Origin: a virus
Virus record (IMG/VR): IMGVR_UViG_3300038701_002047
Span: 1-39,377 of that record
Direction: 5' to 3' (one strand)
Length of the DNA: 39,377 nt
Every line of letters starts with the position of its first letter. The first letter of the stretch is position 1. Below the pieces are notes generated by a model. The model searched no databases. It was not told the origin of the DNA and saw nothing but the letters and a program-made list of their open reading frames with translations. A program made the position numbers and the translations under genes. Positions 1 to 39,377 of this stretch are shown here, in pieces.

Positions 1-2
1 AT

Positions 3-3584: not shown

Positions 3585-4019
3585 ATGGCAAATGAAATTT
3601 ATAGTAAGGATATAGCCGTCGAGGTAGACATGGGTTACCCTTCTACGGCTGATTGGAAACTAATAACTTGTATAACTTCTAAGGGGTTATCTAAGACCAC
3701 CAACACCACTACCATAAACACCGATTGCGAGCCGGATTTCGTAAGGCAGTTGCCTACGGATAGCCAATGGTCTGCAACATTTGATGGTCTGGTTAATTTG
3801 GTTCCTTCGGCTGGTGAAATTAGTGCAGAGGGGTTAAACACTATTCAGGATTCAAGGGCGGTAAAGCCTTTCAGGTTCCATAATGCAGATGATTCCTACT
3901 ACCGGGAAGGTTTAGGTTTTATTTCTCAGTTGGATGAAAACGGGTCTGCGGGGGAATACCTTAACTTCTCTATTTCAATAACCGGAAGTGCTGAATTAAC
4001 CTATGCCCCTGCAACTTAA
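3585..4019 (+). CDS. Major tail (tube) protein
   Basis: The 144 aa protein starts 'MANEIYSKDIAVEVDMGYPSTADWKLITCITSKGLSKTTNTTTINTDCEPD' and continues 'SWSATFDGLVNL'-like core strands, the pattern of TP901-1-type tail tube proteins with the S..ATFDG motif. It would polymerise as hexameric rings around the tape measure protein. No C-terminal Ig-like decoration domain is present. The stop TAA overlaps the following gene start (4019), typical of the tail tube/chaperone pair. Confidence 0.8.
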   Translation: MANEIYSKDIAVEVDMGYPSTADWKLITCITSKGLSKTTNTTTINTDCEPDFVRQLPTDSQWSATFDGLVNLVPSAGEISAEGLNTIQDSRAVKPFRFHNADDSYYREGLGFISQLDENGSAGEYLNFSISITGSAELTYAPAT

Positions 4020-9412: not shown

Positions 9413-10788
9413 TGGCAGATATAGCTAATAAAAAATACTTTGCAATAATAGCCGATCCCGTTGCGCAACCAACATACCCAGCAACTTGGGAAACGGCAGA
9501 GTTTCCGGTAAACCCTCCATCGACTAACGGTGGCAACCTGGGGGGTATCGGCACGCCTCCTAAAATAGCTATTTGGACAAGTGAAAACACGCTGGGGGAT
9601 TCGGCCGCTTCCGATGATGGTAGTACGTTTTTTATCGATTCCAGGACATTAAGAATTAACAGTATTGATAATTTAGGTACTGAAGCTAGTAATTACCTGG
9701 TACCCGATGGTTCTGGAAATGTCAGGTTACGAACAGCGCAACAGGTTAAAAATGATTTAGGGGTAATTACCATACCTATTCCAGATGGAGTTGTCGTTAT
9801 CGGTACGGCCACGCAAACGGTTAATGATATTGAATATGGAACGGATTGGGTTTGGAGAATATCAGAAGTAGAATATTCTTTATCCGTTGCTGATACGATA
9901 AGTTTTCCGGCTGCTGCTTCCGGTGATGTAAGGATAGATTTAGTGGTAGGTGATAATACCGGGAACATTACAAGGGTTGCAGGTACTGAAGTTCCTTCAG
10001 GTGATCCGGTTGTCGCTCCTTCTGTGCCTGTTAATTCCGTAGGGTTGCAAGAAATATTGGTCGATGATACAGGGATAGATACAATAACTAATTTCGCATT
10101 AGCTAATTATGTGAGGTATGATATTGACGACCAGGGATTGTCTGGTGTTCAAAAATTAAACGCTATTGAAAATATTGGAATTGGTGATTATTTTCTAAGA
10201 AAAAATGAGGACGACGAAGGGACGATATCTTTAACCACTTCTGATTTTAAGCTAACATCCACAGGGCAAGGTAATACCTCTTCTTTTTTTAGATTGTTTG
10301 ATTCTTTAGGTCTAGAACTATTTAGGGTTAACAGGCGTGGTGATGTTACTATAAGAATGTCCAGGGTGGCTTCACGTTTTACAATCTACGATTTTACAAA
10401 TACAATAAACTTTGAAGTAAATCCAAATGGACAGGTATTTCATTTGCGGTCAACAGATTCGGATAAGTCAGTTAGAAGGGACGAACTTTATATGAATTAT
10501 TCTGAAACAAATGTTACCGATGGAACTATTAATAATCTTGACATTGATGCAGGAACAAAATTAATTAAATTTACGCAAGCCGATACATTAACTGGTGTGG
10601 TTGTTGGATCAGGTAATGAAGATAGGCTTTTACGTATTTATTCTGATGGTACTACATTAACGATTAAAGATGAAGATGCTAATTCTACTGCTGTTAATAG
10701 ATTTGATTTAGGTTCTGATTTAGTAGTAAGCGACAAAGAAATTTATTCATTCATCTATACCGATTCTCGTTGGAGGCGTGTTTTATAA
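9412..10788 (+). CDS. Putative tail fibre/appendage protein
   Basis: A 458 aa beta-rich protein coupled to the tail-tip gene by TAATG overlap. Residues about 1-60 are a P/G-rich beginning ('YPATWETAEFPVNPPSTNGGNLGGIGTPPK'); the middle has fibre-like sentences such as 'YLVPDGSGNVRLRTAQQVKNDLG', and the C-terminus ('IDAGTKLIKFTQADTLTGVVVGSGNEDRLLRIYSDGTTLTIKDEDANSTAVNRFDLGSD') resembles the terminal domain of many phage fibre and structural proteins. ATG 9412 is preferred to 9376 because of the overlap pattern. It probably contacts the cell surface; no catalytic motif was seen. Confidence 0.6.
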   Translation: MADIANKKYFAIIADPVAQPTYPATWETAEFPVNPPSTNGGNLGGIGTPPKIAIWTSENTLGDSAASDDGSTFFIDSRTLRINSIDNLGTEASNYLVPDGSGNVRLRTAQQVKNDLGVITIPIPDGVVVIGTATQTVNDIEYGTDWVWRISEVEYSLSVADTISFPAAASGDVRIDLVVGDNTGNITRVAGTEVPSGDPVVAPSVPVNSVGLQEILVDDTGIDTITNFALANYVRYDIDDQGLSGVQKLNAIENIGIGDYFLRKNEDDEGTISLTTSDFKLTSTGQGNTSSFFRLFDSLGLELFRVNRRGDVTIRMSRVASRFTIYDFTNTINFEVNPNGQVFHLRSTDSDKSVRRDELYMNYSETNVTDGTINNLDIDAGTKLIKFTQADTLTGVVVGSGNEDRLLRIYSDGTTLTIKDEDANSTAVNRFDLGSDLVVSDKEIYSFIYTDSRWRRVL

Positions 10789-11219
10789 TGGTAAAAACTC
10801 AAATTTCAGATAATCCAATTCTAAAAATTAGTAGATTTGTGGAGGTGCTACGGATTGAATACTTAGACTTTGTAAACAAAGAAGCTAAGATTCTCTTCAA
10901 ATTGTCGCATCAAAGTAAAGGAATTGATATTGGCCTAAATAAAGAAACATGGGTTACCATTTCCAATAAAAACAAGGTTACTGATTCCGGTATTGTAGTC
11001 AATACTAAAAATCTAAAACCGGTTAAAATAAAGGAAAAGGATAAGCCGGAACGGGAAGAAACACCACAGGAATACAAAGACCGGTTAAAGCAAATGGAAA
11101 AGGCCGGCCATAGTGAATTTGACTTTTGGTGGGAAAACGGAAAAGATCAGAATTTGGAACATGCCTTAACAAATGGTATATTATTACTGGACACTTTAAA
11201 GCACTTTGATAATGAGTAA
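10788..11219 (+). CDS. Hypothetical protein in tail operon
   Basis: The 143 aa product starts MVKTQISDNPILKISRF and contains a Lys/Glu-rich linker ('KIKEKDKPEREETPQEYKDRLKQMEK') and an acidic C-terminus. Family not recognised. It overlaps the fibre gene by one base (TAATG) and the next small gene by 8 nt, so it is part of the same late transcript and probably a virion or fibre-assembly protein. Confidence 0.55.
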   Translation: MVKTQISDNPILKISRFVEVLRIEYLDFVNKEAKILFKLSHQSKGIDIGLNKETWVTISNKNKVTDSGIVVNTKNLKPVKIKEKDKPEREETPQEYKDRLKQMEKAGHSEFDFWWENGKDQNLEHALTNGILLLDTLKHFDNE

Positions 11220-13292: not shown

Positions 13293-13853
13293 TTATCTTT
13301 TTATACCAAAATCTGATTTTCTTATTTTACACATTCTACCATCAGTCAAGTGATGAAATACGATTCCTTCAATATCATTTGAATTTAAAAAAGACTTTAT
13401 CCCCTCAAATGTATAATCATGAAGGTTTAAAACTTCGCCCCCATGTCTAATTAAAAAATGTCCATTTAATTTTTCAGGATTTCCATTTATTTTATTTCCG
13501 CATAATTCATACGTACCTTCCTTTAAGTCTCCAAAAACCTTTAAATTATCAAATGCTTGAAAATGGTATTTGTTAGACTTATCTGATCTTTCACAAAGTA
13601 CCCAATGAGGATGATGCCCTGTTATTTTATCTGGGCCTTGGCATGGAATACATTTAGTTTTCGGTAGCTTCCTGCCTTTTTTTAAGTCAAATCTTTTGTA
13701 AAGTTCACCATCAATAATAGCGCATGAAGTACCATCAAATTTACGAGTAGGAAATGAATACATTAAAGCCCATTCATTTTTTGGGTCAACTTCATTAATT
13801 ACAAGTCCTAAGTTTTCTGGATTCTTTTTAAATAGAGTGCTTATTTTTTTCAT
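13293..13853 (-). CDS. RNA ligase of the RLIG1/C12orf29 (DUF5565) type
   Basis: The 186 aa protein carries the nucleotidyltransferase ligase motifs: motif I KFDG at 38-41 (Lys38 expected to be adenylated), 'IEGIVFHH' at 161-168 (motif IV) and 'MCKIRKSDFG' at 174-183 (motif V). The segments 'GHHPHWVLCERSDKSNKYHF' and 'YELCGNKINGNP...HFLIRHG' match my memory of human C12orf29/RLIG1 ('HIPGWVPVE', 'ELIGTNINGNPYG', 'HLLIPHGA', 'IEGIVWH'). That family joins RNA 5'-phosphate and 3'-OH ends using ATP. A likely role is repair of tRNA or other RNA cut by host defence nucleases. It overlaps the upstream small gene by ATGA. Confidence 0.8.
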   Translation of the reverse strand: MKKISTLFKKNPENLGLVINEVDPKNEWALMYSFPTRKFDGTSCAIIDGELYKRFDLKKGRKLPKTKCIPCQGPDKITGHHPHWVLCERSDKSNKYHFQAFDNLKVFGDLKEGTYELCGNKINGNPEKLNGHFLIRHGGEVLNLHDYTFEGIKSFLNSNDIEGIVFHHLTDGRMCKIRKSDFGIKR

Positions 13854-14011
13854 AAGTGGTCATATTCAATTTCTTGCCAATTAATACCATCTCTGGTAAA
13901 TTTATTTGTCGATGTATCAATAACCATTAATCCTGTATGGTCAAAGTTATCTGGTTCATACCATTTGGTAAAATACGGTGGTGCGATTTCTTGAATTATT
14001 AGGTATCTCAT
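13850..14011 (-). CDS. Small hypothetical protein, 53 aa
   Basis: The minus-strand frame starts MRYLIIQEIAPPYFTKWYEP and ends IEYDHL. It overlaps its neighbours by ATGA at both ends (14008-14011 and 13850-13853), strong evidence of a translated operon member. No family recognised; it sits between a lipoprotein gene and the RNA ligase. Confidence 0.6.
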   Translation of the reverse strand: MRYLIIQEIAPPYFTKWYEPDNFDHTGLMVIDTSTNKFTRDGINWQEIEYDHL

Positions 14012-19639: not shown

Positions 19640-19960
19640 TTTGTCAATTTAGGCTGATTTTTTACACATTTTACACCAATTTTACACGACTTTTACACGC
19701 TACTGTAAACTTAGTTATATAGATATGTTATTGATAATCAATTAATTACAATTCAATATTTGCCAATTTTTACACTTTTACACGGTTTTTACAAACAAAA
19801 ATAAAATGGTAAGTGAAATTTTTTTTACTTTTATTTTTCGTGTAAAAGTGTAAAAGTAGTGTCAAAAACAGGCTAAAAACGGCCTATACTGGATTGAATC
19901 GCATATAACGGCTTTTACAGTTGAGTGTAAAAGTTGTGTAAAAATGTGTAAAAGTTTTAC
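19640..19960. other. Probable replication origin (iteron region)
   Basis: The gap of 363 bp between two replication genes holds eleven copies of an 8-mer: TTTTACAC at 19660, 19669, 19680, 19691, 19768, 19776 and its complement GTGTAAAA at 19840, 19848, 19925, 19936, 19946. The copies face a centre between 19784 and 19839, with perfect 13-bp arms ACACTTTTACACG (19772-19784) and CGTGTAAAAGTGT (19839-19851) around a very AT-rich core. Iterons plus an AT-rich core next to a primase-helicase gene are typical of an origin; the initiator is not identified. The same repeats could also serve as operators. Confidence 0.65.
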
Positions 19961-22122
19961 AGGAGTGAAAGCTGGCTTTTTTGAGAAACAGCAGCCTTTA
20001 AATTTGCTTTCGCTAAGTCGTAGTAGCTTTCTTTCAACTCAAAACCTACTCCTTTTCTTCCCATTTTAACAGCCTGATAAACTTCGCTACCTATACCCAT
20101 GAAAGGTGAAAAAATTGAATCTCCAGGATTGCTGTAAAGATGTATTAACCTTTCAATGGTATCTAGTTGTAATGGACAAATATGCTTTTCGTCATTATCT
20201 TCTCTTCCATTCCTAAAACCTTGTAATGTATTTGAATAATTAATATCCATCCATACAGGAGAAGCGTATTTTTGCCACAAGTCAACATTAATACCAGTAT
20301 TCATAACAGGATTATTCCTTTCTCCATCCTTCCTAAAAACTAAAACATAATCCGGAATACCTACCCTGCTCATGGTGCTATCTTTTTTTACTTGCTTGTG
20401 CAATAGTCCAAGTGCTTTTGTTCTTTGCATTTCAACAACAGGATCTTTCCAAATGGTTATTCTACTAGCATAGATAAAACCAGCATCCTGAAAAACTTTT
20501 AATATCATTCCAGAAAAATCCCTTAATCCAATAAAACCTTCCTTACCTTTTTGAATTGGTAAATCCATACAATGAACAGCAACATTTCTACCTGACATCA
20601 TAACCCGATAAAGTTCTTTAATCAAAAAACGAAACTGATTTAAAAACACCTTATAGTTCTTTGAATTCGCCATATCCTCTACATGATTAGAATAGGTGTA
20701 TAGTTCAGCAAATGGAGGACTAAAAACACTTAAACCTTGGCTTTCATCTTCAATGCTTTTAATAAGTTGTACTGAATCCCCACATTTAATATCAAACCAT
20801 TCATTTTGTTCACTATCAATAATATAGCTTTTTGATTCCATCATTTTACCGGAAAGATTCATATTAACTGCTTTTGCCATTTCATCCTGCATAATTTCAA
20901 ATTGTTTTTGTTTGTGATCAATAGCCTTTTTGACATTTGCCATTGTATCGGTTGTAATCAAATAAATGTTTACCTCATTCTTTTGGCCGAACCTGTAACT
21001 TCTCCTAATAGCCTGGTAAAGCCCCTCGAAAGAAAAATCTAATGAAGCAAATATCTGATTTCTGCAATTTTGATAATTCATACCAAAACTGGCTATTTTT
21101 GTTTTGGTGATTAATATCCTGAATTCATTATTAGCGAAACCCAATAGTTTTTCTTTTTTCCATTCATTGGAATCAGAACCTTTAACTTCTACTGCATCAG
21201 GAAGTAATTTCTTTAAAGATTGTCCTTCCTCATTTTGCTTAATCCAAATAATGAAGTTCTCATCAGGCTTATCATTAATGATAGAAACGACTTCTTCCAA
21301 CCTTTCTATTTTTGTTAGCCTTAACTCCGAATTGAAATTGGTTGCTGAAATTAGCGCATCATTGAAAAGTCTACCATTGTCCCGGTTAGGTGTAATTATC
21401 TGATTTTCTATCAGGTTTAGTTTTGGTAAGTCATATCCATTCATTTCAAACCCAATATCCATAGGCTTGTTAAGCATAATTGCCCATGTGCCAATCCATT
21501 GGTAGAAAATCTTTATTGCATGACCTTTAAGTCTCCATTTTGATGTTTCTCCTCCATCATGAACAAAATACATTGATAGCATTTCATTTCGGCCCATAAT
21601 GTCTAAGAATTCTGAATGGTTCCCTAATTCCATTGGATCGTTAGGGCTTGGGGTTGCAGTACATGCTAACTTGTAAGGAGTGTTTTTAAAATTGTCAATT
21701 ATTTTCTTTTTAATTGATCCCTCAAAGTTTTTCAGAATGCTACTTTCATCAAGAACAATACCGGAATAAATTGAGCAATCAATATTATCTAATTGCTCAT
21801 AATTCTGGACACTAATGTTGTCCATATTTATCCCAAACTTAGATCCCTCTTTAATCGTTTGCCCTACTACTGCAAGAGGTGCCAATATCAAAACATGTTT
21901 ACCAGTATTTATATTAACCTGGTTTGCCCATTCCAATTGCATCAATGTTTTTCCTAATCCACAATCCGCAAAAATAGCATACTTACCAGCCTTTAACGCT
22001 CGTTTAACTATGAATTTTTGGAAGTCAAACATATTACTGTTTAATTCCTTTTCGCTAATATCGAATCCTGAGAATACATGCTTTTTTTGCTTTGATTCCA
22101 GGAACTTTAAATAATCATCCAT
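19957..22122 (-). CDS. SNF2-like helicase fused to DNA methyltransferase
   Basis: The 721 aa protein has an N-terminal SF2/SNF2-type ATPase (about 30-400): Walker A DCGLGKT near 53-59, DES at 125-127, 'ACTATPSPNDPMELGNHSEFL' from 154, and 'ASLDFSFEGLYQAIRRSYRFGQ' (motif VI) near 359-380. The C-terminal half (about 440-721) is an N4/N6-type DNA methyltransferase with SPPF at 468-471 (motif IV) and 'FSPFMGIGSEVYQAVKMGRKGVGFELKESYY' (motif I) near the end, a permuted (beta-class) order. No nuclease domain is visible. Probably protects or modifies phage DNA; ATP-driven translocation may aid site scanning. Lies beside the iteron region. Confidence 0.8.
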   Translation of the reverse strand: MDDYLKFLESKQKKHVFSGFDISEKELNSNMFDFQKFIVKRALKAGKYAIFADCGLGKTLMQLEWANQVNINTGKHVLILAPLAVVGQTIKEGSKFGINMDNISVQNYEQLDNIDCSIYSGIVLDESSILKNFEGSIKKKIIDNFKNTPYKLACTATPSPNDPMELGNHSEFLDIMGRNEMLSMYFVHDGGETSKWRLKGHAIKIFYQWIGTWAIMLNKPMDIGFEMNGYDLPKLNLIENQIITPNRDNGRLFNDALISATNFNSELRLTKIERLEEVVSIINDKPDENFIIWIKQNEEGQSLKKLLPDAVEVKGSDSNEWKKEKLLGFANNEFRILITKTKIASFGMNYQNCRNQIFASLDFSFEGLYQAIRRSYRFGQKNEVNIYLITTDTMANVKKAIDHKQKQFEIMQDEMAKAVNMNLSGKMMESKSYIIDSEQNEWFDIKCGDSVQLIKSIEDESQGLSVFSPPFAELYTYSNHVEDMANSKNYKVFLNQFRFLIKELYRVMMSGRNVAVHCMDLPIQKGKEGFIGLRDFSGMILKVFQDAGFIYASRITIWKDPVVEMQRTKALGLLHKQVKKDSTMSRVGIPDYVLVFRKDGERNNPVMNTGINVDLWQKYASPVWMDINYSNTLQGFRNGREDNDEKHICPLQLDTIERLIHLYSNPGDSIFSPFMGIGSEVYQAVKMGRKGVGFELKESYYDLAKANLKAAVSQKSQLSLL

Positions 22123-28519: not shown

Positions 28520-28701
28520 AAACACTAAGAAGAATCCTTTTTGTATTCTATAATATATTAATTGCCATAGGAACTATACTTTTATTTTTACCATACGCTG
28601 TTATGGTAGTTTTTTTATTCCTTGCAACAGGAAAGGATTATTTCGAAATATTATTTAATTACCTTGATGATTTAGGATTAAGAATATTAGGTGAAAGATG
28701 A
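28516..28701 (+). CDS. Small membrane protein
   Basis: A 61 aa protein with a long hydrophobic region ('ILFVFYNILIAIGTILLFLPYAVMVVFLFLATG') and an acidic tail. Overlaps both neighbours by ATGA, so it is co-translated with the minor head gene downstream. It could be an exclusion or inner-membrane protein; no family recognised. Confidence 0.5.
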   Translation: MKTLRRILFVFYNILIAIGTILLFLPYAVMVVFLFLATGKDYFEILFNYLDDLGLRILGER

Positions 28702-29501
28702 AAAGCTGGCTAAAAAGGGAAAAAGCATATACAAAAAAGTATTCAAGACTGTTCTATTTTCTACTTAACCGGATATGGAGAAGGTCTGCAAGGCAGTACA
28801 GGGAAACAGGATCATTCGAGATAACAGAACAGGATTTTTTTACTTTGTACTTGAAATTATACAGGACAATAGGAGGCCAAGAGGCTAAGATTGCATTACG
28901 TTCTATGCCACGGGAAAAGGACTTTTTTGATGCGCTGGCCAATATGTTCAACGGTGGCAATAATCCTGAGACAGTTACATTCTTACGGGAACTGATGGGG
29001 CAATACTTTAACGTTCACGTAATGGAACGGTTAAGGGAGGTGACTCAAAATACAAGGGAGCAAATACTTAGGATTATTCAGAAAGGATTTGATGAAGGGT
29101 TAGGAGCTAGGGAACGGGCAAAGCTAATAAGGGATTCAGCCCCGGAAATTAACCGTACAAGGTCAATCAGGATCGCAAGGACTGAAAGCGTAACGGCCGC
29201 CAATAAGGCGCAATTATTAGCACATGAAGCAAGTCCTTTCGAATATGAAAAAGCTTGGTTATCGGTTAAGCAACCTGATAGAACAAGGCCTTCTCATTTG
29301 GCAATGGATCAGAACTTTTTTATTCCTTTGTGGGATTACTTTAACGTGGCCAATTCAGATGGTGCCTTAGATCAAATGTTGGCACCAGGTGACACTAATG
29401 CAAGTGCTTCAAATGTAGTTAATTGCAGGTGTGTATTATTATTCAGAGCAAAAAGAGACGAAAATGGTCGACTAATAAGGAAAAACGATTTACAGATATG
29501 A
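28698..29501 (+). CDS. Minor head protein (Mu gpF / SPP1 gp7 family)
   Basis: The 267 aa protein carries the diagnostic C-terminal Mu-F pattern: 'RIARTESVTAANKAQLLAHEASP...KAWLSVKQPDRTRPSHLAMDQNFFIPLWDYF', 'LAPGDTNASASNVVNCRCVLLFRAKRDENG' (D.RTR..H and NCRC). The N-terminal half is helical and basic. In relatives it joins the procapsid and may be ejected with or guide DNA. It overlaps the next gene by ATGA; that and the next eight genes then interrupt the usual order before the protease. Confidence 0.85.
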   Translation: MKSWLKREKAYTKKYSRLFYFLLNRIWRRSARQYRETGSFEITEQDFFTLYLKLYRTIGGQEAKIALRSMPREKDFFDALANMFNGGNNPETVTFLRELMGQYFNVHVMERLREVTQNTREQILRIIQKGFDEGLGARERAKLIRDSAPEINRTRSIRIARTESVTAANKAQLLAHEASPFEYEKAWLSVKQPDRTRPSHLAMDQNFFIPLWDYFNVANSDGALDQMLAPGDTNASASNVVNCRCVLLFRAKRDENGRLIRKNDLQI

Positions 29502-30103
29502 CAAAGCAAGAAATTGAGAAACTAGAAAGAATTTGCAAGGAAAACGGGTTTGATATTAAACCCTATTATACAGAAACAGATTTATTCGTCATTGAACCGG
29601 CGAAAGATGAATGGGAGGGGGTTAAGTTTATAGAAGGAAGTAAAGGCAGGATTTATAAGGTTAAAAAATATGGTTCAGATGGATTATTTACTACGTGTGG
29701 AAAATTTTTTGATTGGCATTACGTGAAAGATTTGTCCAAGAAATCCACCGAACAGGCCTACAAAGACCAGTTGATTGACGAAGCTAAGAAAAGGTTTGGT
29801 GAGATTAGGTATGGTGCTTTATTTTTTAATCTTTATCAAAATGAATTTATAGAAAAAATATTTTTTCCTGAGGTTGGTTTTTCATATGAATATGATGATG
29901 ATTTGTTGTGTTTTGGTAATATAGCAATTTACCAAAATGGCAAATGGGCCAAACGAGTTGAGGAAATAAAAATTTGCAATTATACGCAATCTGTAAATGG
30001 GTTAGTTCTTTCTTATTCAAATCCATTATCAACGCTAATTAGCGAAAAAGATTTAGAGAAAATATTTTCACTCATAAAGAAGATAATCAATGAAAAGGAC
30101 TGA
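29498..30103 (+). CDS. Hypothetical protein, first of head-operon accessory cassette
   Basis: The 201 aa product is taken from ATG 29498 (MTKQEIEKLERICKENGFDI), overlapping the minor head stop by ATGA. It contains 'WEGVKFIEGSKGRIYKVKKYGSDGLFTTCGKFFDWHYVKDLSKKSTEQAYKDQLIDEAKKRFG', which reads like a soluble alpha/beta protein. Family not recognised. It overlaps the SAM methyltransferase gene by 14 nt. Confidence 0.5.
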   Translation: MTKQEIEKLERICKENGFDIKPYYTETDLFVIEPAKDEWEGVKFIEGSKGRIYKVKKYGSDGLFTTCGKFFDWHYVKDLSKKSTEQAYKDQLIDEAKKRFGEIRYGALFFNLYQNEFIEKIFFPEVGFSYEYDDDLLCFGNIAIYQNGKWAKRVEEIKICNYTQSVNGLVLSYSNPLSTLISEKDLEKIFSLIKKIINEKD

Positions 30104-30632
30104 AATAATTAACCAGAAAATAAAAGAAAAAGGGTATCAATCTTATTTGGAAATAGGATTGGGGAATGAAGCTAATTTTAACGCTGTTCAATGCAAGTAC
30201 AAAAAAGGTGTAGACCCTGAAGGAGCAATGAAAGATGGTAAATACCTTGGTCATTCCGATGATTTTTTTAACGATAATCCTGAAAAGTTCGACCTAATTT
30301 TCATTGATGGTCTTCATCATGCTGAACAGGTTGAAAAGGATATTGTAAACTCATGGAAATGCCTTAATCCTGGTGGTACTATTATCATACATGACATTAA
30401 GCCATTGGACGAGGTATGCCAACGGGTACCACGGGAAACAGTCGCATGGACTGGGAACGTATGGAGGGCTTGGATAGGTCTTAAAAACACTTATCCAAAA
30501 CTGAAAACAAGCTACATTGACGAACGTGTAGGACTTGGGGTAATTGAAAAGTCAAGGCACAAGATTGAACCGGGTTTTATTGATTGGGAAACCAGTTATG
30601 AAGATTATAACGAAATGGAGGGATGGGAATGA
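30090..30632 (+). CDS. Class I SAM-dependent methyltransferase
   Basis: The 180 aa protein shows the Methyltransf_24-like pattern: 'SYLEIGLGNEANFNAVQCKYKKGVDPEG' (motif I and acidic residue after the second strand), 'FDLIFIDGLHHAEQVEKDIVNSWKCLNPGGTIIIHDIKP' (IDG.H..E...D......L..GG....HD). This subgroup often acts on sugars or small molecules, not DNA. It lies directly upstream of three glycosyltransferase-like genes, which suggests O-methylation of a glycan. Confidence 0.75.
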   Translation: MKRTEIINQKIKEKGYQSYLEIGLGNEANFNAVQCKYKKGVDPEGAMKDGKYLGHSDDFFNDNPEKFDLIFIDGLHHAEQVEKDIVNSWKCLNPGGTIIIHDIKPLDEVCQRVPRETVAWTGNVWRAWIGLKNTYPKLKTSYIDERVGLGVIEKSRHKIEPGFIDWETSYEDYNEMEGWE

Positions 30633-30838
30633 AAAATATAATCTCATACGCTAAAATTCCGTTTTATGTTATGGTAGCAACTATGTATTTAATTTATTTA
30701 TTATTCATACATGGGCCAATGATCGTATATAATTTTCATGACATTGTTACAAAAGAGAAAGCTAATTTTGTAGGTCGTACTGCTGAAATTATGCTAATAC
30801 TATTTGTTTCAATACTTGTCTTGTACTTTATTAGTTAA
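30629..30838 (+). CDS. Small membrane protein
   Basis: A 69 aa protein from ATG 30629 with two transmembrane segments ('IPFYVMVATMYLIYLLFIHG' and 'AEIMLILFVSILVLYFIS') and a polar loop between. It overlaps the methyltransferase stop by ATGA. Not recognised; it could anchor or host the sugar-transfer machinery. Confidence 0.5.
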   Translation: MKNIISYAKIPFYVMVATMYLIYLLFIHGPMIVYNFHDIVTKEKANFVGRTAEIMLILFVSILVLYFIS

Positions 30839-30847
30839 TCTTTTGCA

Positions 30848-31468
30848 ATGAAAAAAGCCATCTACTCAGTAATAATTGGAGACTATGACCACCTGCACCC
30901 GGCACCAAAACAGGATGGGTGGGATTGTTACCTTTACACAGATCAGAACTTTACTGATTCAATGGGTTGGTGTGTTATTCCTGTTCCAGTGTCAAAGAAT
31001 CCTAAGTTAGATTCCAGGCGGTACAAGATTCTTTCGCACAACTATTTGAAGGATTACGATTTAGTTTGCTACATAGATGCCAATTATACGGTTATTGGTG
31101 AATTGCCATATTACCCTATGAGGTTTCTACATGGTCAAAGGAATTCTGTATATGATGAATGTGATCAGGTTTTGAAACTAAGGAAAGAAACCAGGGGGAA
31201 TATAGACTACCTTAAAGAATATATGGATACTATTAATTTCCCATTAAGCCCCCCTCCTTTTCTTTTTCAAAACGGTTTTTTTGTAAGGTTTCATGATCCA
31301 ATAAGTAACCAATTGCATGATTATTGGTTTTGGCTTACTCAATTGATTACATGCAGGGATCAGCTTACTTTGCCGGTCGCTATGCATAAGGTGCCATTTA
31401 CTGATTTATACCCATTAGAAAACTACCAACACAAAAGATACTTCAAAAAGCTTAGTAATCATAAATGA
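30848..31468 (+). CDS. Glycosyltransferase-like protein (DUF616/TOD1 type)
   Basis: The 206 aa protein matches the DUF616 glycosyltransferase pattern: 'AIYSVIIGDYDHLHPAPKQDGWDCYLYTDQNF', 'WCVIPVPVSKNPKLDSRRYKILSHNYLKDYDLVCYIDANYTV' (the R.YKI..H.YL.DYD...YID.N block, D77). DUF616 proteins are GT-A-like transferases found in bacterial glycan clusters. The next GT gene overlaps by 4 nt. Confidence 0.75.
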   Translation: MKKAIYSVIIGDYDHLHPAPKQDGWDCYLYTDQNFTDSMGWCVIPVPVSKNPKLDSRRYKILSHNYLKDYDLVCYIDANYTVIGELPYYPMRFLHGQRNSVYDECDQVLKLRKETRGNIDYLKEYMDTINFPLSPPPFLFQNGFFVRFHDPISNQLHDYWFWLTQLITCRDQLTLPVAMHKVPFTDLYPLENYQHKRYFKKLSNHK

Positions 31469-32058
31469 AACAAGTACACCACATTACCCCGGGAAGAACA
31501 GATAAAAACATAGGCAAAGCCATCAACCAATTGATAAAGGATTTGCCAGCTGAAGATTGGGTATGCCTCCGGGACATTGATACGATCCCAATGGATCATT
31601 TGAATTTTTTTAAACAATGCGAGACAATCGCTAATAGTTCTCAATTTGATATTGTTGGATGTATGACCAACCGTATAGGTATGACACATCAGTTGCACAT
31701 GGGAAGGATTTCAAATGATTTCAATATGCTTAACCATATAAAAATAGGTAAGCAACTTTCATCTATGCATGGATCGAGGGTTGAACCGTTGAATACCACT
31801 ATAGCCGGGTTCTTTATGCTGTTTTCGGTTGACATTTGGCGAAAGGCCGGTGGGTTCCGGGAAGGTAAGATTAGAATGGATTTAGATGGGTCGGATTACA
31901 TGAAGCACAAGTCTAAAGACAAGTTCTTTGATTGGCACTTTTGTAATGATGCAATTAAAGCCGGTGGTAAAATAGGTATAGCTAGGGGAATTTATGTTTT
32001 CCATTTATATCGGCCCTGGTCGAATAATCCTAAACGAGCAACAGAACATTTGAGGTAA
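31465..32058 (+). CDS. GT-A fold glycosyltransferase
   Basis: The 197 aa protein has an N-terminal nucleotide-sugar region ending in 'EDWVCLRDIDTIPMDHLNFF' (DID at 37-39, the DxD metal site), 'FDIVGCMTNRIGM', then 'AGFFMLFSVDIWRKAGGFREGKIRMDLDGSDYMKHKSKDKFFDWHFCNDAIKAGGKIGIARGIYVFHLYRP', a layout typical of GT2-like enzymes (acceptor Asp, ED-like, W/H tail). It overlaps neighbours by 4 and 1 nt. Confidence 0.75.
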   Translation: MKQVHHITPGRTDKNIGKAINQLIKDLPAEDWVCLRDIDTIPMDHLNFFKQCETIANSSQFDIVGCMTNRIGMTHQLHMGRISNDFNMLNHIKIGKQLSSMHGSRVEPLNTTIAGFFMLFSVDIWRKAGGFREGKIRMDLDGSDYMKHKSKDKFFDWHFCNDAIKAGGKIGIARGIYVFHLYRPWSNNPKRATEHLR

Positions 32059-32372
32059 TGGACACAGAAAAATATTTAAAAATAGCCGATTCTATTGAAA
32101 ATGAATTAACAAATCATATTCAAAAAGAAATAGTAAAAAAGCTAGATTATCTTGTTATAGAAGGTCTTAGAATTAAAGGATATGAATTTGATAATGAAGA
32201 AGATTTAATCGAGTTCATAAAAGAAAACTGTAATTCACATCAAAGTCAAAATGTAATTTTGTATTCTGTAAAAGGTGAGTTTTTTATGAAGCATGTTTAT
32301 AACATGGATTTTAATTTAAATCCTGAAAATGATTGTTTTTCTGTAGAATTTGGACACTACGAGTTTTTATGA
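32058..32372 (+). CDS. Hypothetical protein in glycosyltransferase cassette
   Basis: The 104 aa protein is charged and helical ('MDTEKYLKIADSIENELTNHIQKEIVKKLDYLVIEGLRIKGYEFDNEEDLIEFIKENC'), then beta strands. Not recognised. It joins the flanking GT genes by TAATG and ATGA overlaps. No enzymatic motif was seen, so it may be an unrelated accessory gene inserted in frame with the coupling. Confidence 0.5.
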   Translation: MDTEKYLKIADSIENELTNHIQKEIVKKLDYLVIEGLRIKGYEFDNEEDLIEFIKENCNSHQSQNVILYSVKGEFFMKHVYNMDFNLNPENDCFSVEFGHYEFL

Positions 32373-33064
32373 AATTCCTAACAACCGAAATAAACCACGT
32401 AAAAAACCCGATGTATGAACGGCTTCTGAATGCTTGGGAAAAGTCAGTAGTGGCCAATACACAATCAGAATACGAACGGGCTTATCTAAACCCTGAAGAT
32501 TACCCACAATGCCACCACTCAAAGAACAGCTACCTAGCTAATTCTGTAAAGCTTAATTATTGGGCAGAAAGGATTAAAAAGGAATCAGGTAACATTTGCC
32601 TTATAGATGGTGATACGGTTGTCTTGAAAGATGTCAGCCATGTATTTGATCAGGACTTTGATATTGCTTATACTCTTCGGTCTAAAGGGTCTGAAATGCC
32701 GGTAAACGGTGGCGTTATTTTCGTTAAGCCTTCAGAGTTGGTTAATGACTTCTTTGAAAAATGGGTACTTACCAATAATGAAATGCTAGTCAATCAGGCT
32801 TTGCATCGACATTGGTACGCAAGGTACAAGGGTATGAATCAGGCTTCTTTCGGGTACATGATGGAGCGGTATAAAACGGACTTGAAAATTATACCTGTTC
32901 CCTGTTCAAAGTACAATGCATGTGATCGATCAGATTGGATTAATATTAACCATGACACGCATATTCTACACGTTAAATCTGAATTACGGGTTGCATGCCT
33001 CCGAGATTCAGTACCAAAACAATACCGTAAAGCTTATGAAATTTGGAAACAATATGATTATTAA
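32369..33064 (+). CDS. Nucleotide-diphospho-sugar transferase-like protein
   Basis: The 231 aa protein taken from ATG 32369 has 'SVKLNYWAERIKKESGNICLIDGDTVVLKDVSHVFDQDFDIAYTLRSKG...MPVNGGVIFVKPSELVNDFFEKW' (DGD at 80-82; NGG at 113-115), which is the usual donor-binding and NGG signature of GT8/GT77-like transferases. A C-terminal 'HILHVKSELRV' contains the His of the metal site. The 32333 start is less likely because 32369 overlaps the previous stop. It probably adds a sugar after the two upstream GTs. Confidence 0.7.
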   Translation: MKFLTTEINHVKNPMYERLLNAWEKSVVANTQSEYERAYLNPEDYPQCHHSKNSYLANSVKLNYWAERIKKESGNICLIDGDTVVLKDVSHVFDQDFDIAYTLRSKGSEMPVNGGVIFVKPSELVNDFFEKWVLTNNEMLVNQALHRHWYARYKGMNQASFGYMMERYKTDLKIIPVPCSKYNACDRSDWININHDTHILHVKSELRVACLRDSVPKQYRKAYEIWKQYDY

Positions 33065-33278
33065 AATAGAATCAGCTGAACCTATTTTATCACGGAATTT
33101 CAATTCACATGATTATAGATTTTACGTTAAGTTCTGGCGTGTAAAAGGCTTTCATTGGGATGGTGATTGTATGTGTACTAAGAAAACATTTGATATTTTT
33201 ATTGGTGTTGACAATTTACACCTAAAAGAACATACGTTGATTAATTTGGTTAAGGGTAGGTTAATGGATGGTGAATAG
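33054..33278 (+). CDS. Small hypothetical protein
   Basis: A 74 aa product from ATG 33054, overlapping the GT gene by 11 nt. It is basic and beta-rich ('FNSHDYRFYVKFWRVKGFHWDGDCMCTKKTFDIFIGVDNLHLKEHTLINLVKGRLMDGE'). Not recognised. Last gene of the cassette, followed by the convergent small gene at 33335. Confidence 0.5.
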   Translation: MIIKIESAEPILSRNFNSHDYRFYVKFWRVKGFHWDGDCMCTKKTFDIFIGVDNLHLKEHTLINLVKGRLMDGE

Positions 33279-33308: not shown

Positions 33309-33353
33309 ATTAACATAATATGTTAATATCTGAGTTAGTGGCAATACAATTCC
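33309..33353. repeat. Cassette 3' boundary stem-loop (copy B)
   Basis: ATTAACAT / ATGTTAAT arms (33309-33316, 33320-33327) with AAT loop, then GTTAATATCTGAGTTAG continuing as in copy A (3 differences in 32 over 33322-33353). It overlaps the 3' end of the minus-strand gene at 33335. Confidence 0.7.
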
Positions 33354-33559
33354 TTAATATCGTAAGTAAACGAACCATTACCATGTTTCTTTCTTAAAGA
33401 GCATATGTACTTATCAGCTTCTGTTTTGTTTTTAAACAATTTCATACTGCTTTCAAATATACCTTCATAATCAATTCTCATGAAAGCCAAGTAAGTAATG
33501 CCACTAATAACAGGTATAGTGCATTGCTCTTTTTCGTTATTTTTACTATCTGTATTCAT
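33335..33559 (-). CDS. Small cassette-type protein with QCTIPV N-terminus
   Basis: A 74 aa protein, MNTDSKNNEKEQCTIPVISG followed by 'ITYLAFMRIDYEGIFESSMKLFKNKTEADKYICSLRKKHGNGSFTYDIKELYCH'. The N-terminal segment and upstream leader are shared with the gene at 12628; the body is different. Its last codons lie in the repeated boundary, so the C-terminus 'KELYCH' is encoded by the repeat. It interrupts the head operon in reverse orientation. Confidence 0.6.
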   Translation of the reverse strand: MNTDSKNNEKEQCTIPVISGITYLAFMRIDYEGIFESSMKLFKNKTEADKYICSLRKKHGNGSFTYDIKELYCH

Positions 33560-33703: not shown

Positions 33704-33925
33704 TTATTCAATATTAATATTATAAGCCCTATCATTGATAAAATCCGTTATCTGGTCAATAGTAGGGTCTAACATATCAATGTATCCTGAAAAATGGATC
33801 CTTAGACCTTCATTCACAGTAAGTAGTCCGTTGTCGTTAATTTTTATGGTGATCCATTCGTTTGCATCTGTTTTTGAGATAAAACGATCATCTACTTTTT
33901 TGATTGAATCTTTTATTATGACCAT
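33704..33925 (-). CDS. Small hypothetical protein
   Basis: A 73 aa protein, 'MVIIKDSIKKVDDRFISKTDANEWITIKINDNGLLTVNEGLRIHFSGYIDMLDPTIDQITDFINDRAYNINIE'. Beta-rich with an acidic helical end; not recognised. It stands alone in reverse orientation upstream of the protease gene. The minus-strand sequence just upstream contains TATATTTG-like bases (CGTATATTTGGGG, near 33930-33940), a likely own promoter. Confidence 0.5.
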   Translation of the reverse strand: MVIIKDSIKKVDDRFISKTDANEWITIKINDNGLLTVNEGLRIHFSGYIDMLDPTIDQITDFINDRAYNINIE

Positions 33926-34014: not shown

Positions 34015-34698
34015 ATGTCAAAAGTCGATCCTAACAACTACAAGACGAAAGCAGCTTCCTTTCAGGTTAAAGAAATGGAGGATAAAGAGGGTATAGTAGT
34101 TGCTTATGCGAATTTGTATAATAATGAGGATTACGATGGTGACATTTCTTTACCTGGATCATTTGATAAAACGATCAATGAAAAGAATCTAAAGAAATTA
34201 AAGGTTCTAAAAGATCACAATAGGTTCATTACTCTTGGGGTACCTATTGAAAAGCCTAAAACGAACGATCCGATAGGATTATTGACCACTACCAAGTTCA
34301 ACCTAAATAAAGAGGTAGCTAGGGACATGTTTAGCGACATACAGCTAAACATGCAATACCAGAAAGAAGTAGACTTATCAATAGGGTTTAACGTTGTAAA
34401 AAGGGACGAAAAGGATTATAGAAAGATTAAAGAATATGCCTTGTGGGAATACACTTTTCTTTCTTCATGGGGTGCCAATCCGGGGGCAATCGTTCAAGGG
34501 GTAAAATCCTCCGATAAACTAGATTACATTAAAACATTCTTGGTTGATGCCTATAACCTGAATTATTCAGATAACAGGCTAATCCAAATTGAAACAATAT
34601 TAAAGTCACTTGATGGACAGGAGCCGGCCAAGCCACTTCTACCAAAGGAGCCGACAATTGAGGAAATAAAATCATTAATCATTTCAAAATTTAAGTGA
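34015..34698 (+). CDS. Prohead protease (HK97 U35 family)
   Basis: The 227 aa protein shows the U35 pattern: 'IVVAYANLYNNEDYDGDISLPGSFDKTI' (Y-A..FN..D.DGD...PGSF), 'LKVLKDHNRFITLGVPIE' with catalytic His68, and 'QYQKEVDLSIGFNVVKRDE' with catalytic Ser122 in LSIGF. It trims the capsid scaffold segment during prohead maturation. It overlaps the major capsid gene by one base (TGATG), the usual protease-capsid pairing. Confidence 0.9.
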   Translation: MSKVDPNNYKTKAASFQVKEMEDKEGIVVAYANLYNNEDYDGDISLPGSFDKTINEKNLKKLKVLKDHNRFITLGVPIEKPKTNDPIGLLTTTKFNLNKEVARDMFSDIQLNMQYQKEVDLSIGFNVVKRDEKDYRKIKEYALWEYTFLSSWGANPGAIVQGVKSSDKLDYIKTFLVDAYNLNYSDNRLIQIETILKSLDGQEPAKPLLPKEPTIEEIKSLIISKFK

Positions 34699-35981
34699 TG
34701 GACATTAAAGAAATTGAAGGCGTACTTGATGAAGCCACTAAAGGGCTTAAAGCCCAGGTAGAAGACGCAAATAAAAAGGCTGCTGAAGGGCTTACTCTTT
34801 ACGAAAAAGTTAAAGAAGAGCTTGAAAAATCAGCATCAAAGGATAAAGTTGAGGCTATGGAAATGAAGGTAAAAGCCCTTCAGGATATGGCTGATACGAT
34901 GGCAATTAAACTGCAGAATGGAGGCGGTTTACCACAGACAAAGAAGTCTGTAATTGATCAATTTGGAGAAGATTACAAAGCCAAAGCCGCACAAATAAAA
35001 GAGATTTCAGAATCTGGAACAGGGAAAATAACCCTTCAGGCAAAAGATGCTGTTACCGGATTAGGTGTATTTGGAACCGATGTTATTCGAGGTCTTAGGG
35101 AACCAGGAATTGACAGACCACAATTTAGGGACAACTTTATTTTCAACCTGATACAAACTGTAAACGGTGGAGTTGGTTCTAATCCATTAAATTGGATTGA
35201 ACAACAGCAAGTGTCAGGCGTTGGTATTGACGATGCGCCCGCATGGACTGCTGAAAGCGCCATTAAGCCTGTCATGAAATGGGAGTGGGTAGTGAATGAG
35301 GTTACTGCAAGGATGTTGCCAGCAACTGCCTATATTACGAGACAGGCGTTATTGAATTGGGCTATCCTTCAAAACACTATTCAAAATGAGTTGATCCGAG
35401 AATTGATGGACGTTTTGGATGATTCAGTTATTAATGGTGATGGTACCGGTCAGAACATTTACGGGATTAAGCATTATGCTAAAACATTTAGTGTTGGAGA
35501 TATTGAGGCTATTGCAGCTCCTTATGATGTTGACGTTATTAGAGCAGCCATTTCTCAGGTAAAAAGAGGTGGCGCACCTACAGATAGAAAAAGAGGAGGT
35601 TTTACACCTTCAGCAATTCTGGTATCAGTTGACCGTGGAGCAAACATGGATCTTTCCCGATCTTCAAGTGATGGTCATTATATACTACCTCCATTCGTAT
35701 CAAATGACAATACGGTAGTTAAGAATGTCCCGGTTATTGAAACAAACTTCTTAACAGGTGATGAATTTATTGTTGGTGATATGTCCAAATACCTTTTCAA
35801 CGTTGTAGACGGTGTTAAGGTCGACATGGGATACATTGACAAGCAATTTGTTCAGAACCAGGTAACACTACGTGCGGAAATGTACGGCATGGGACGAGTG
35901 AAAGCCAATGAAGCGTTTGCATTTGTTAAAGGTGACTTCACAAGTGCTAAAACTAAATTGGAAGCAGGCCCTGTAACTTGA
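34698..35981 (+). CDS. Major capsid protein (HK97 fold)
   Basis: The 427 aa protein begins with a coiled-coil scaffold-like delta domain (residues about 1-80, 'ATKGLKAQVEDANKKAAEGLTLYEKVKEELEKSASKDKVEAMEMKVKALQDMADTM'). The capsid core follows ('FIFNLIQTVNGGVGSNPLNWIEQQQVSGVGIDDAPAWTAESAIKPVMKWEWVVNEVTARMLPATAYITRQALLNW', 'VINGDGTGQNIYGIKHYA', 'GHYILPPFVSNDNTVVKNVPVIET', 'VTLRAEMYGMGRVKANEAFAFVKG'), all usual HK97-type segments. The delta domain is likely cut by the upstream protease. A strong terminator follows. Confidence 0.9.
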   Translation: MDIKEIEGVLDEATKGLKAQVEDANKKAAEGLTLYEKVKEELEKSASKDKVEAMEMKVKALQDMADTMAIKLQNGGGLPQTKKSVIDQFGEDYKAKAAQIKEISESGTGKITLQAKDAVTGLGVFGTDVIRGLREPGIDRPQFRDNFIFNLIQTVNGGVGSNPLNWIEQQQVSGVGIDDAPAWTAESAIKPVMKWEWVVNEVTARMLPATAYITRQALLNWAILQNTIQNELIRELMDVLDDSVINGDGTGQNIYGIKHYAKTFSVGDIEAIAAPYDVDVIRAAISQVKRGGAPTDRKRGGFTPSAILVSVDRGANMDLSRSSSDGHYILPPFVSNDNTVVKNVPVIETNFLTGDEFIVGDMSKYLFNVVDGVKVDMGYIDKQFVQNQVTLRAEMYGMGRVKANEAFAFVKGDFTSAKTKLEAGPVT

Positions 35982-37220: not shown

Positions 37221-39377
37221 ATGGAAAAACACCCTATAGCTTTAGAAAATCAAAAGTTTTTTGTTCCCAGTGATGCGGTCACAGGTGATCAAATAGGGGA
37301 GGTAACCTATCTGTACACTTTTACAACGTTCTGGAATGAATATTATGGTACTTCATATACAGACAATGATTTTAGTTTTTCCTTAATTTCAGGTACTGGA
37401 TTTGCCGTTAATTCATCAACAGGCGATCTTTCAGTAACTTCTTTATCAGGATTATCAGGAACTGTAAACATTACCGTTAGGGTAACGATCGACACTATGT
37501 CAATAGATGTTGCCTGCGAGATAGTAATTCTTGATTCAAGTAATTGCTTTTACTTCGATCCTGATTATGATGGTTCTAACGGGATAAGTATAGGAACAAG
37601 GGAACGGCCATTTTTGAAATTCAATGGTTCAGGTCTAACGCCAACGGCCGGTAAAACCTATCTTTGGCGAAGGGGTAAAACATTTACCAGGGAATGGACT
37701 GTAATTGTAAACCCAGTTGTCGGTGGTAATTACCCGGACTGGATAACGTTCGATGCGTATGGTCAAGGAGCAAGGCCAATTATCAACGGAAACGACAACA
37801 TATTAGGGAACGCAAATAAAAGGTTTGTAGACGTTGGTGGGGCTGGACTATCGAATGATAATTTAGATCCTACACTGGTTGGTAATAAATTCAGAATAGC
37901 GAACATTGATACCACCCATGATAAAAGTAATTCATGGTATCCTTTTCAAATTAGGGGGCTTGGTGATTACTTAGAATTCAGGCGTATATCGATGGAAGAA
38001 ACTACTTTCTCAGATGGATTCATGTACTTTGCCGTTTATACAAGTCAGGAATATTATGATAGGCAAATTTACCTTGAATCAATCAAGACAAAAAATAGTG
38101 AGGAAAGATCCATAAAAATAGAAGCCGGGGGCGTAAGGGGTAATAATTTCTACTGTATCAATGAAGGGCCAACATTAACAGAACACCCGGCACCCGGTGC
38201 GGCAAATTGGCCAAATGTGACACTTAAATATATTTACGCCTCAGGTAATAATATTTCTACGTCTAATTTAGGATTACAATGTCGATCAGGATTTCACACC
38301 TATGAATTTTGTTACCTAAAAGGATTTGGGAACACCTTAGTAGTTTACATTCATCTTGCTTTGGATGGTAAGGGAGGTATTTACGATGTTAAAAATGGAG
38401 GATTTAAAAATATAATTGTCGATGGTGCGCAATCTACTGTATCCTATTTTGGAAGGCAGGGCGGTACTACTGGGATTGCCGATGGTATTTATTTCACCAA
38501 CATAAAGGCAATTAATTGTTCTGATGGTATGCAGGTTGCCGAAGGAGCTGTTAATACCTTAATAAATTATTGTGATATTTCAGACACCGGAAATGATGGG
38601 ATAAGAATTTTTTCTTCTGCTGGATCAGGAACAAAAATACATAATGTTACAGCATTTGGTAATAATTCCAATGACATAGAATTAAGCTTAGGAGGTGTAG
38701 AGGTAATAAATAGCAATTACGGGTCAATCGGTGGCACTCCAACCGGGTCAAACAATTCTAATTCACAAATAGAAGGCGATCTAATCAACGCTGGTATTTA
38801 CCTTGACTATACCCATGATTCAATCAATAATCCGGTACCTCCTGAATTCCCATCTATTGGGGCTTATGAATTCACAACCGAGCAGACATTGACGGTTACC
38901 GTTGATCCTGTTGCAAGCGGAACAACTAATGTAACAAGTGTTACCCATGGAGAAGATGAAGTTATTAATTTGGTGGCCACTCCGGCAAATGGATTTGGTT
39001 TTGTGAATTGGACTATTGATTCCGTTGAAATAGATGATAATGCTTCATTTGCTTATACGGCTCCATTTTCCAACCAAACTATCACAGCTAATTTCAGCGC
39101 AACAGACACCTATACATTAACATTAACAAGTGATGGAAATGGAACTGTAAGCGGTGGAGGGTCTTATGATGAAGGGGAAATTGTCGTATTAACCGCTGTT
39201 CCGGGAGTTGGATATGACTTTAGTGGATGGTTTCTTGATGGATCAACCTTAATATCAAGTTCAAACCCCTACAGTTATACAATGCCTGCGGAAAATGTTT
39301 CCATAGAAGGGCAATTTACCGAAACACCACCCGACCCACCAACACCGGAACCAGAAACAGGTAAACGATGTGAAACA
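37221..39377 (+). CDS. Beta-helix spike protein with InlB-like repeats (continues at base 3)
   Basis: The frame is open from ATG 37221 to the end (719 codons) and re-enters at base 3. The N-terminus (about 1-110) is a cadherin/Ig-like beta domain ('MEKHPIALENQKFFVPSDAV', later 'GFAVNSSTGDLSVTSLSG'). Residues about 115-560 form a pectate-lyase-type right-handed beta-helix ('FYFDPDYDGSNGISIGTRERPFLKF'). Two bacterial (InlB B) repeats then follow ('LTVTVDPVASGTTNVTSV' and 'TLTLTSDGNGTVSGGGSYDEGE'). It is probably a receptor-binding or glycan-degrading appendage; placed next to the connector genes, it may attach at the neck. It lies 4 nt downstream of a promoter box. Confidence 0.65.
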   Translation, partial: MEKHPIALENQKFFVPSDAVTGDQIGEVTYLYTFTTFWNEYYGTSYTDNDFSFSLISGTGFAVNSSTGDLSVTSLSGLSGTVNITVRVTIDTMSIDVACEIVILDSSNCFYFDPDYDGSNGISIGTRERPFLKFNGSGLTPTAGKTYLWRRGKTFTREWTVIVNPVVGGNYPDWITFDAYGQGARPIINGNDNILGNANKRFVDVGGAGLSNDNLDPTLVGNKFRIANIDTTHDKSNSWYPFQIRGLGDYLEFRRISMEETTFSDGFMYFAVYTSQEYYDRQIYLESIKTKNSEERSIKIEAGGVRGNNFYCINEGPTLTEHPAPGAANWPNVTLKYIYASGNNISTSNLGLQCRSGFHTYEFCYLKGFGNTLVVYIHLALDGKGGIYDVKNGGFKNIIVDGAQSTVSYFGRQGGTTGIADGIYFTNIKAINCSDGMQVAEGAVNTLINYCDISDTGNDGIRIFSSAGSGTKIHNVTAFGNNSNDIELSLGGVEVINSNYGSIGGTPTGSNNSNSQIEGDLINAGIYLDYTHDSINNPVPPEFPSIGAYEFTTEQTLTVTVDPVASGTTNVTSVTHGEDEVINLVATPANGFGFVNWTIDSVEIDDNASFAYTAPFSNQTITANFSATDTYTLTLTSDGNGTVSGGGSYDEGEIVVLTAVPGVGYDFSGWFLDGSTLISSSNPYSYTMPAENVSIEGQFTETPPDPPTPEPETGKRCET
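39252..39377. repeat. Terminal direct repeat, right copy
   Basis: Exact copy of bases 3-128. Joining the two copies gives a circle of about 39,249 bp and restores the reading frame of the beta-helix gene that starts at 37221. Confidence 0.9.

Follow-up and report, generated by a model that had tools for sequence, protein, structure and literature searches.

On which molecules do sugar- and methyl-transferring enzymes act when their genes lie among the head genes of a phage? The question is raised by a viral stretch of 39,377 nucleotides (IMG/VR record IMGVR_UViG_3300038701_002047; this whole stretch is termed the window here), in which ORF calling and hmmscan place a gene block between the genes for a MuF-like minor head protein and the prohead protease (Table 1), bearing out an earlier note that had described a glycan-building cassette in this slot. 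The slot holds one SAM methyltransferase (MTase), three GT-A-like glycosyltransferases (GT-a, GT-b and GT-c), one small membrane protein and three small unknowns, with overlaps mostly of 1-14 nt. The previously given extent of the block, 29498-33278, stands, while the start of GT-c was corrected to the ATG at 32369 and the best start of the last gene to 33054. The answer we favor, at a probability of roughly 0.72, is that the cassette glycosylates and O-methylates virion proteins, with predicted chemistry, donors and acceptors.

Table 1. Genes in and around the cassette and candidate acceptor proteins (positions in the window)
Feature	Position	Strand	Evidence
MuF-like minor head/head morphogenesis protein, left border of slot	28698..29501	+	PF04233 2.3e-9, phrog_2468 2e-43
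201-aa protein, 4-nt overlap with MuF	29498..30103	+	without Pfam/NCBIfam match
MTase, class I SAM methyltransferase, 14-nt overlap with 201-aa protein gene	30090..30632	+	PF13578 2.4e-11, above cut-off
Small hydrophobic protein, ~2 TM, 10-nt overlap with MTase	30623..30838	+	sequence
GT-a, TOD1/DUF616-type GT-A-like glycosyltransferase	30848..31468	+	PF04765 1.8e-4, phrog_26101 N-half 4e-16
GT-b, GT2-like GT-A glycosyltransferase, 4-nt overlap with GT-a	31465..32058	+	phrog_14179 2e-42
104-aa protein, recurrent cassette partner, 1-nt overlap with GT-b	32058..32372	+	homologues in L081, L062/L069/L073
GT-c, putative GT8-like glycosyltransferase, 4-nt overlap with 104-aa protein gene	32369..33064	+	PF03407 5e-5, above cut-off
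74-aa cassette-linked protein, 11-nt overlap with GT-c	33054..33278	+	homologue in L023
Small ORF between cassette and protease	33335..33559	-	ORF call
Small ORF between cassette and protease	33704..33925	-	ORF call
Prohead protease, right border of slot	34015..34698	+	phrog_80 1.5e-27
Major capsid protein (MCP), C-terminus ...AGPVT, candidate acceptor	34695..35981	+	PF05065 1.7e-21; C-terminus analysis
Major tail (tube) protein, C-terminus ...TYAPAT, candidate acceptor	3585..4019	+	homologous to annotated Cellulophaga phi12:1 tail protein; C-terminus analysis

The overlaps had been taken to mean that the enzymes are made with the head proteins. They support one transcript with MuF, but protease and capsid genes are cut off by ~735 nt containing the two small reverse ORFs, and head genes and GT block run on opposite strands in some nine relatives. 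Co-expression of the cassette with head genes is thus not conserved, and co-production was rejected as a general rule. Close DNA-level relatives of the window were not found among phage records; neither did MuF as bait retrieve any from viral contigs, and conservation of the portal proved too low for its alignment to serve as bait. The block or parts of it recur in many phages, arguing against chance. A homologue of the 104-aa protein is encoded at 7385-7714 in locus L081 (1.3e-11), with weaker ones in L062, L069 and L073, each between MCP and GT-b, and a homologue of the 74-aa protein (6e-6) adjoins the MTase of a GT cassette in L023.

GT-a reaches PF04765 (TOD1/MUCI70, formerly DUF616) exactly at the cut-off in the window and above it in L050, and its YxDA and RDQ motifs are conserved. 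GT-b falls below the cut-off for PF13641 (GT2-like, 8e-5) and matches a PHROG annotated as 'glycosyltransferase'. These borderline or sub-threshold Pfam matches were counted against the main reading. D37xD39, NR, H180 and YR are invariant in 37 diverse GT-b homologues, and the GT-b model (pLDDT 91.7) combines the DxD motif with a predicted GT-A fold, its top PDB matches being GT-A enzymes almost throughout (best TM 0.51, to ppGalNAc-T2). By homology, GT-a corresponds to the N-terminal half and GT-b to the C-terminal half of a single protein of ~400 aa (phrog_26101; Cellulophaga phi12:1 gp40), and the two are fused in most relatives. The N-terminal half of a fused homologue (pLDDT ~90) yields a model resembling GT6 transferases and K4 chondroitin polymerase, and it is from this model, by homology, that the window's GT-a is assigned a GT-A fold in addition to its family score. 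Three different glycosyltransferases had been noted earlier; three GT-A-like genes are indeed present, but two of them form one functional pair, since they correspond to the halves of one protein. GT-c shares D80xD82, NGG and H.K motifs with L010-L014; compared with the GT8 motif set (DxD, NxG, HxxGxxKPW-like), D80xD82 and NGG are present and the last motif is degenerate (HVKS). Sequence searches of the PDB with MTase, GT-a, GT-b and GT-c returned nothing meaningful.

An alignment of seven MTase family members features the SAM motif YLEIG as well as IDGLHH, HD and WTGD; where DNA methyltransferases carry a DPPY/NPPF motif, FIDGLHH is found. Judged by these motifs, the window enzyme is probably a sugar O-methyltransferase. 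In Helsingorvirus the half of the MTase that bears SAM motif I is missing, and methylation may therefore have been lost there, a point against the reading favored here.

Relatives of GT-b were gathered by the GT-b sequence alone, without regard to neighbors. GT-b occurs on ~110 viral contigs as opposed to 2 contigs in the bacterial genome collection, and a head gene is located within 5 kb in 79 of 88 loci. When clustered at 50% identity, 10 of 12 clusters have a head gene at this distance by the window's HMMs; L092 and L018, missed by these HMMs, combine GT-b with the PF03864 capsid type, and in L096 GT-b lies 8.5 kb from an SU10-like capsid gene. Altogether, GT-b loci adjoin three different capsid-protein families, and the layouts vary (portal/MuF-GTab-protease; MCP-GTb-adaptor; between MCP and portal on the opposite strand), so that the linked genes do not form a single invariant block. 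The GTs usually have a methyltransferase as partner, which is not orthologous from group to group, being of the PF13578 type in Helsingorvirus, L055, L072, L085, L090 and L023, of the PF13489 type in 27 freshwater loci and of the FkbM type in the L006/L008/L068 group. The GT-c family, which is unrelated to GT-b, is flanked in L013 by an SU10 capsid gene and a gene for a virion structural protein, again with an FkbM MTase. Since similar gene sets accompany the head genes of relatives, these arrangements suggest that sugar decoration of the phage's own shell, and probably of the tail tube too, occurs in many aquatic phages.

Candidate acceptor sites are pointed at by the C-termini of structural proteins. 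The MCPs of GT-b phages end in Ser or Thr without exception (72/72 sequences, 17/17 clusters) and so do most of their tail tubes (41/50 sequences, 11/13 clusters), compared to 10 of 102 clusters in the remaining structural families pooled. Among 80 GT-less relatives of phage 11b, which represent a single clade, such ends were seen in 2 of 78 MCPs and in none of 74 tail tubes. By itself a Ser/Thr end is a weak signal, since generic PF05065 MCPs have it in 21 of 38 cases (55%), and the idea that any such end is diagnostic was rejected on this basis. A -TT end is present in 10 of 17 MCP clusters of GT-b phages vs. none of the generic MCPs when a GT-b-positive Serratia contig is set aside (Fisher 2e-6 against ~32 generic MCPs, near-copies removed by eye). 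Only this end and the contrast with other structural proteins hold up as acceptor signal. Tail tubes of some freshwater relatives end in ...ADTI, which counts against the acceptor idea.

In the picture we favor, GT-a and GT-b would work as a pair and GT-c as a further transferase. Drawing on host nucleotide-sugars in the cytoplasm of the infected cell, they would attach a short O-glycan to virion proteins during or after particle assembly, and the MTase would cap or mark one of its sugars via O-methylation. The likeliest acceptors would be Ser/Thr residues at the extreme C-terminus of MCP and tail-tube protein. Head-gene linkage, the recurrent MTase and the Corndog-cluster parallel (see below) make virion-protein glycosylation and O-methylation, already proposed in the earlier note, the best-supported reading, even though translational overlap lends it less weight than was claimed there. 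More tentatively, and at somewhat less than even odds, we propose a widespread head-cluster system, found with no fewer than three capsid types, for O-glycosylation and frequent methylation of the Ser/Thr at the C-termini of MCP and tail tube, two non-homologous substrates that would share a -TT or -GT/-S end as recognition tag.

It is rather unlikely that the GTs instead alter the sugars of the host surface late in infection, as the earlier note had allowed, leading to superinfection exclusion or receptor change. LPS and capsule loci often contain such GTs, the cassette includes a small membrane protein, and a 2025 paper on phi18:1 gives gp41 this role as an option (PMC11946311). Yet the GTs read as soluble proteins, the head-gene linkage is kept over three capsid families and several layouts, and the C-terminal bias of capsid and tube would be left unexplained. 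Nor was a gtrAB-like seroconversion set recognized beside the cassette, whose proteins lack family matches to the GtrA flippase and the GtrB bactoprenol GT, and the genome has no integrase match. Still less probable is unrelated cargo ('morons') in a permissive MuF/portal-protease slot, with a function not tied to the head. The slot does accept cargo, as it holds one small gene in phage 11b and, in phi10:1, which likewise has no GT, two tRNAs along with ~12 small genes, and opposite-strand copies occur, but the combination of GT and MTase recurs with non-orthologous parts, also in the MCP-adaptor slot and with other capsid types, and GT-b is almost exclusive to phage contigs. DNA hypermodification, in which the GTs would add sugars to modified bases and methylation of phage DNA would fall to the 'DNA methylase', was rejected as highly improbable, for although an MTase homologue is labeled DNA methyltransferase in GenBank and PHROGs and counted among four DNA MTases in PMC11946311, the genome has no thymidylate-synthase/dCMP-hydroxymethylase family match, the MTase carries IDGLHH/HD rather than DPPY, and an N6/N4 DNA MTase fused to a helicase is already encoded separately at 19957-22122.

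If the cassette indeed acts on virion proteins, virion glycosylation would be common in environmental phages, probably mostly those of Bacteroidota, and would have its own phage-specific GT family there, GT-b. To our knowledge, glycosylation of tailed-phage virions has been shown mainly for mycobacteriophages, with little evidence elsewhere. The acceptor prediction is testable in the cultured Cellulophaga phages phi12:1, phi17:1 and phi18:1; the predicted acceptor ends in phi18:1 or phi12:1 are ...LVSGT of the MCP and ...RTVGT of the tail protein. Action on virion proteins would also mean revising how the phi18:1 genes are read at present ('DNA methylase', LPS/DNA glycosylation) and would aid the annotation of many 'moron' glycosyltransferases.

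Among known systems, the four-GT cluster of Phapecoctavirus (E. coli phages) contains a GT-b homologue (36-37% identity) and differs from the window in its other partner GTs and in adjoining endolysin and helicase genes with no head gene recognized nearby, an observation that counts against the virion reading. Helsingorvirus (Cellulophaga phi12:1, phi18:1 and phi17:1; gp40/gp41-type genes) shares with the window the MuF-protease slot, the order MTase, GT-a, GT-b, homologous enzymes (MTase 42-44% identical, GT-b 37-38%) and a pair of small reverse ORFs after the cassette. Unlike in the window, GT-a and GT-b are fused, GT-c is missing and the MTase is devoid of the N-terminal SAM motif. A small hydrophobic ORF beside the MTase in Cellulophaga phages is a candidate homologue of the window's hydrophobic protein. 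The phi18:1 genes have been interpreted in terms of DNA methylation and LPS/DNA modification (PMC11946311). In the Corndog cluster, for which Firecracker, Dylan and Catdawg sequences were compared, the order is portal, O-MTase (PF13578), three GTs, protease and capsid, with overlapping genes, the MTase and GTs being Corndog gp35-38 and Firecracker gp33-36, and the window likewise encodes a probable O-MTase and several GTs between portal/MuF and capsid protease. No homology of the cluster's GTs (gp35 GT2-like, gp36 GT25) to those of the window is detectable, with no BLAST or profile match between the window GTs and Firecracker gp34-36, and the MTases have just PF13578 in common, being too distant for BLAST or window-profile alignment. 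As in the window, capsid and tail protein end in a hydroxyl residue, which is Ser in the Corndog cluster. Modification of the Corndog-cluster capsid was proposed by the authors on the basis of missing capsid peptides (PMC4351075), and mycobacteriophage capsid glycosylation has been reported by Freeman 2023, as cited in PMC12691614 and PMC11256854.

Virion-protein glycosylation with methylation is the function we consider most probable for the cassette (probability about 0.7). The window, a single IMG/VR virus record, is very probably a circular genome in full, about 39.25 kb long, because its ends share a 126-base direct terminal repeat, the 128-base end segments differing only at their first two bases; the record is listed without stated completeness. 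TerL, portal, MuF, protease and capsid genes follow each other in this order on the plus strand, and ORF calls and HMM searches bear out the location of the block between MuF and protease. It encodes, in order, an unknown protein, a methyltransferase, a small membrane protein, GT-a (TOD1/DUF616-like), GT-b (GT2-like), an unknown protein, GT-c (GT8-like) and a further unknown protein. All genes are joined by 1-14 nt overlaps except for the step into GT-a, a 9-nt gap, and about 735 nt holding two reverse ORFs lead to the protease. The earlier note took the cassette to be made together with the head proteins. Co-transcription is plausible in the window, but it is no conserved rule among relatives, in which opposite-strand layouts occur.

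Coordinates of features in the window and in related loci
Sequence	Position (strand)	Feature
Window	1-128, 39250-39377	direct terminal repeat
Window	37221-, across the junction to 33-677	open frame running from fibre-like protein into head-tail adaptor
Window	13293-13853 (-)	RNA ligase 1-like protein (PF17720, 1e-8), in a small phage
Window	19957-22122 (-)	helicase domain fused to N6/N4 DNA methyltransferase (PF01555)
Window	29498-33278	cassette
Window	32058-32372, 33054-33278	small unknowns with homologues in other such cassettes
L002 (Helsingorvirus)	13543-14010	methyltransferase homologue
L004 (Phapecoctavirus; also L005)	8004-11148	GT-b homologue in four-GT cluster between ter-like genes, endolysin and helicase
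L013 (marine SU10-type phage)	7774-10311	TPR protein, FkbM methyltransferase and GT-c between capsid and virion structural gene

The DxD motif of GT-b is invariant across 37 diverse homologues, and the PDB matches of its model (pLDDT 91.7) are almost all GT-A glycosyltransferases, with a top TM-score of 0.51 to polypeptide GalNAc-transferase T2. GT-a and GT-b form a single protein in most relatives (phrog_26101); the window and the viral loci L086 and L070 encode them as two genes overlapping by 4 nt. The model of a fused homologue, poor in its C-terminal half, has structural matches in GT6 transferases and in K4 chondroitin polymerase, a two-domain enzyme.

GT-b matches occurred in 110 viral contigs, against just 2 in the genome collection, a rough contrast given differing pattern sets. 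A head gene lies at most 5 kb away in 79 of 88 loci (near-copies included), and 10 of the 12 GT-b clusters at 50% identity are accompanied by head or tail genes detectable with the window's HMMs. PF03864 capsids accompany loci L018 and L092, and in L096 GT-b resides 8.5 kb upstream of an SU10-like capsid gene; the Phapecoctavirus type and L093 truly break the pattern. Record MG065650, named Campylobacter phage B15, resembles Phapecoctavirus in both GT-b sequence and size; its host label looks odd. Layouts vary: the block either shares the strand of the head genes, ahead of the protease or between capsid and adaptor, or occupies the opposite strand between capsid and portal. The Cellulophaga phages of the genus Helsingorvirus (phi12:1, phi17:1, phi18:1) harbor this module at the position it has in the window, between MuF and protease.

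A PF13578 methyltransferase gene overlaps or directly precedes that for GT-a/GT-b in Helsingorvirus and in L055, L085, L090 and L072, while a freshwater group combines GT-b with a PF13489 methyltransferase and another GT-like protein, and the opposite-strand group with an FkbM methyltransferase and four to five GTs. Marine locus L013, in which a GT-c family gene adjoins one for an FkbM methyltransferase, is a second head-linked cassette independent of GT-b; a GT8 gene is also present there upstream of TerL. Different enzymes of the same kinds thus repeatedly meet beside head genes.

Candidate acceptors emerge from the C-termini of structural proteins. In GT-b loci the capsid protein ends with Ser/Thr in all 72 complete sequences (17/17 clusters), and so does the tail-tube protein in 41/50 (11/13 clusters), as opposed to 10/102 clusters for the remaining structural families pooled. 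Among 80 GT-less phage 11b relatives, a single clade, the figures are 2/78 for capsid and 0/74 for tail tube. As 21 of 38 generic PF05065 capsid proteins from prophages also end with Ser/Thr, this signal alone is modest (Fisher 4e-4). Sharper is a -TT capsid end, seen in 10/17 GT-b clusters but in no generic capsid other than that of a Serratia contig itself bearing GT-b (Fisher 2e-6, post hoc, the motif having been noticed in the same data; about 32 controls were left after near-copies had been removed by eye). Capsid and tail-tube ends are often alike within one phage: TT/TT in L063, L070, L077, L085, L086 and L094, GT/GT in Helsingorvirus and L072, and VT/AT in the window. In Firecracker the capsid protein ends with GS and a tail protein with DS. 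Mycobacteriophage capsid and tail-tube proteins reportedly carry C-terminal O-glycans (Freeman 2023), with which the ends seen here agree. C-terminal acceptor sites are a reasoned but tentative prediction.

The possibility that the cassette is passenger cargo stays alive because its slot accepts other contents: that of phage 11b holds one small gene and that of phi10:1 about a dozen small genes and two tRNAs, both without a GT. A role in DNA methylation and in LPS or DNA modification, published for phi18:1 gp40/gp41 (PMC11946311), is less consistent with methyltransferase motifs and gene context. The window's enzyme belongs to PF13578 (2.4e-11, HMM search); seven aligned homologues share IDGLHH, HD and WTGD, all but the Helsingorvirus copies also SAM motif I, and none has the DPPY motif of DNA methyltransferases, a pattern suiting a sugar or small-molecule O-methyltransferase better than a DNA methylase. 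The homologues in L002 and other Helsingorvirus phages are annotated as DNA methylases, lack the N-terminal SAM-binding half and may be degenerate.

For virion-protein glycosylation, a parallel is the Corndog cluster, which runs from portal through an O-methyltransferase and three GTs to protease and capsid. Its GTs have no detectable relationship to those of the window, whereas the methyltransferases belong to the same Pfam family. Though no homologue of the Corndog cassette, the putative cassette of the window would be Corndog-like in its working.
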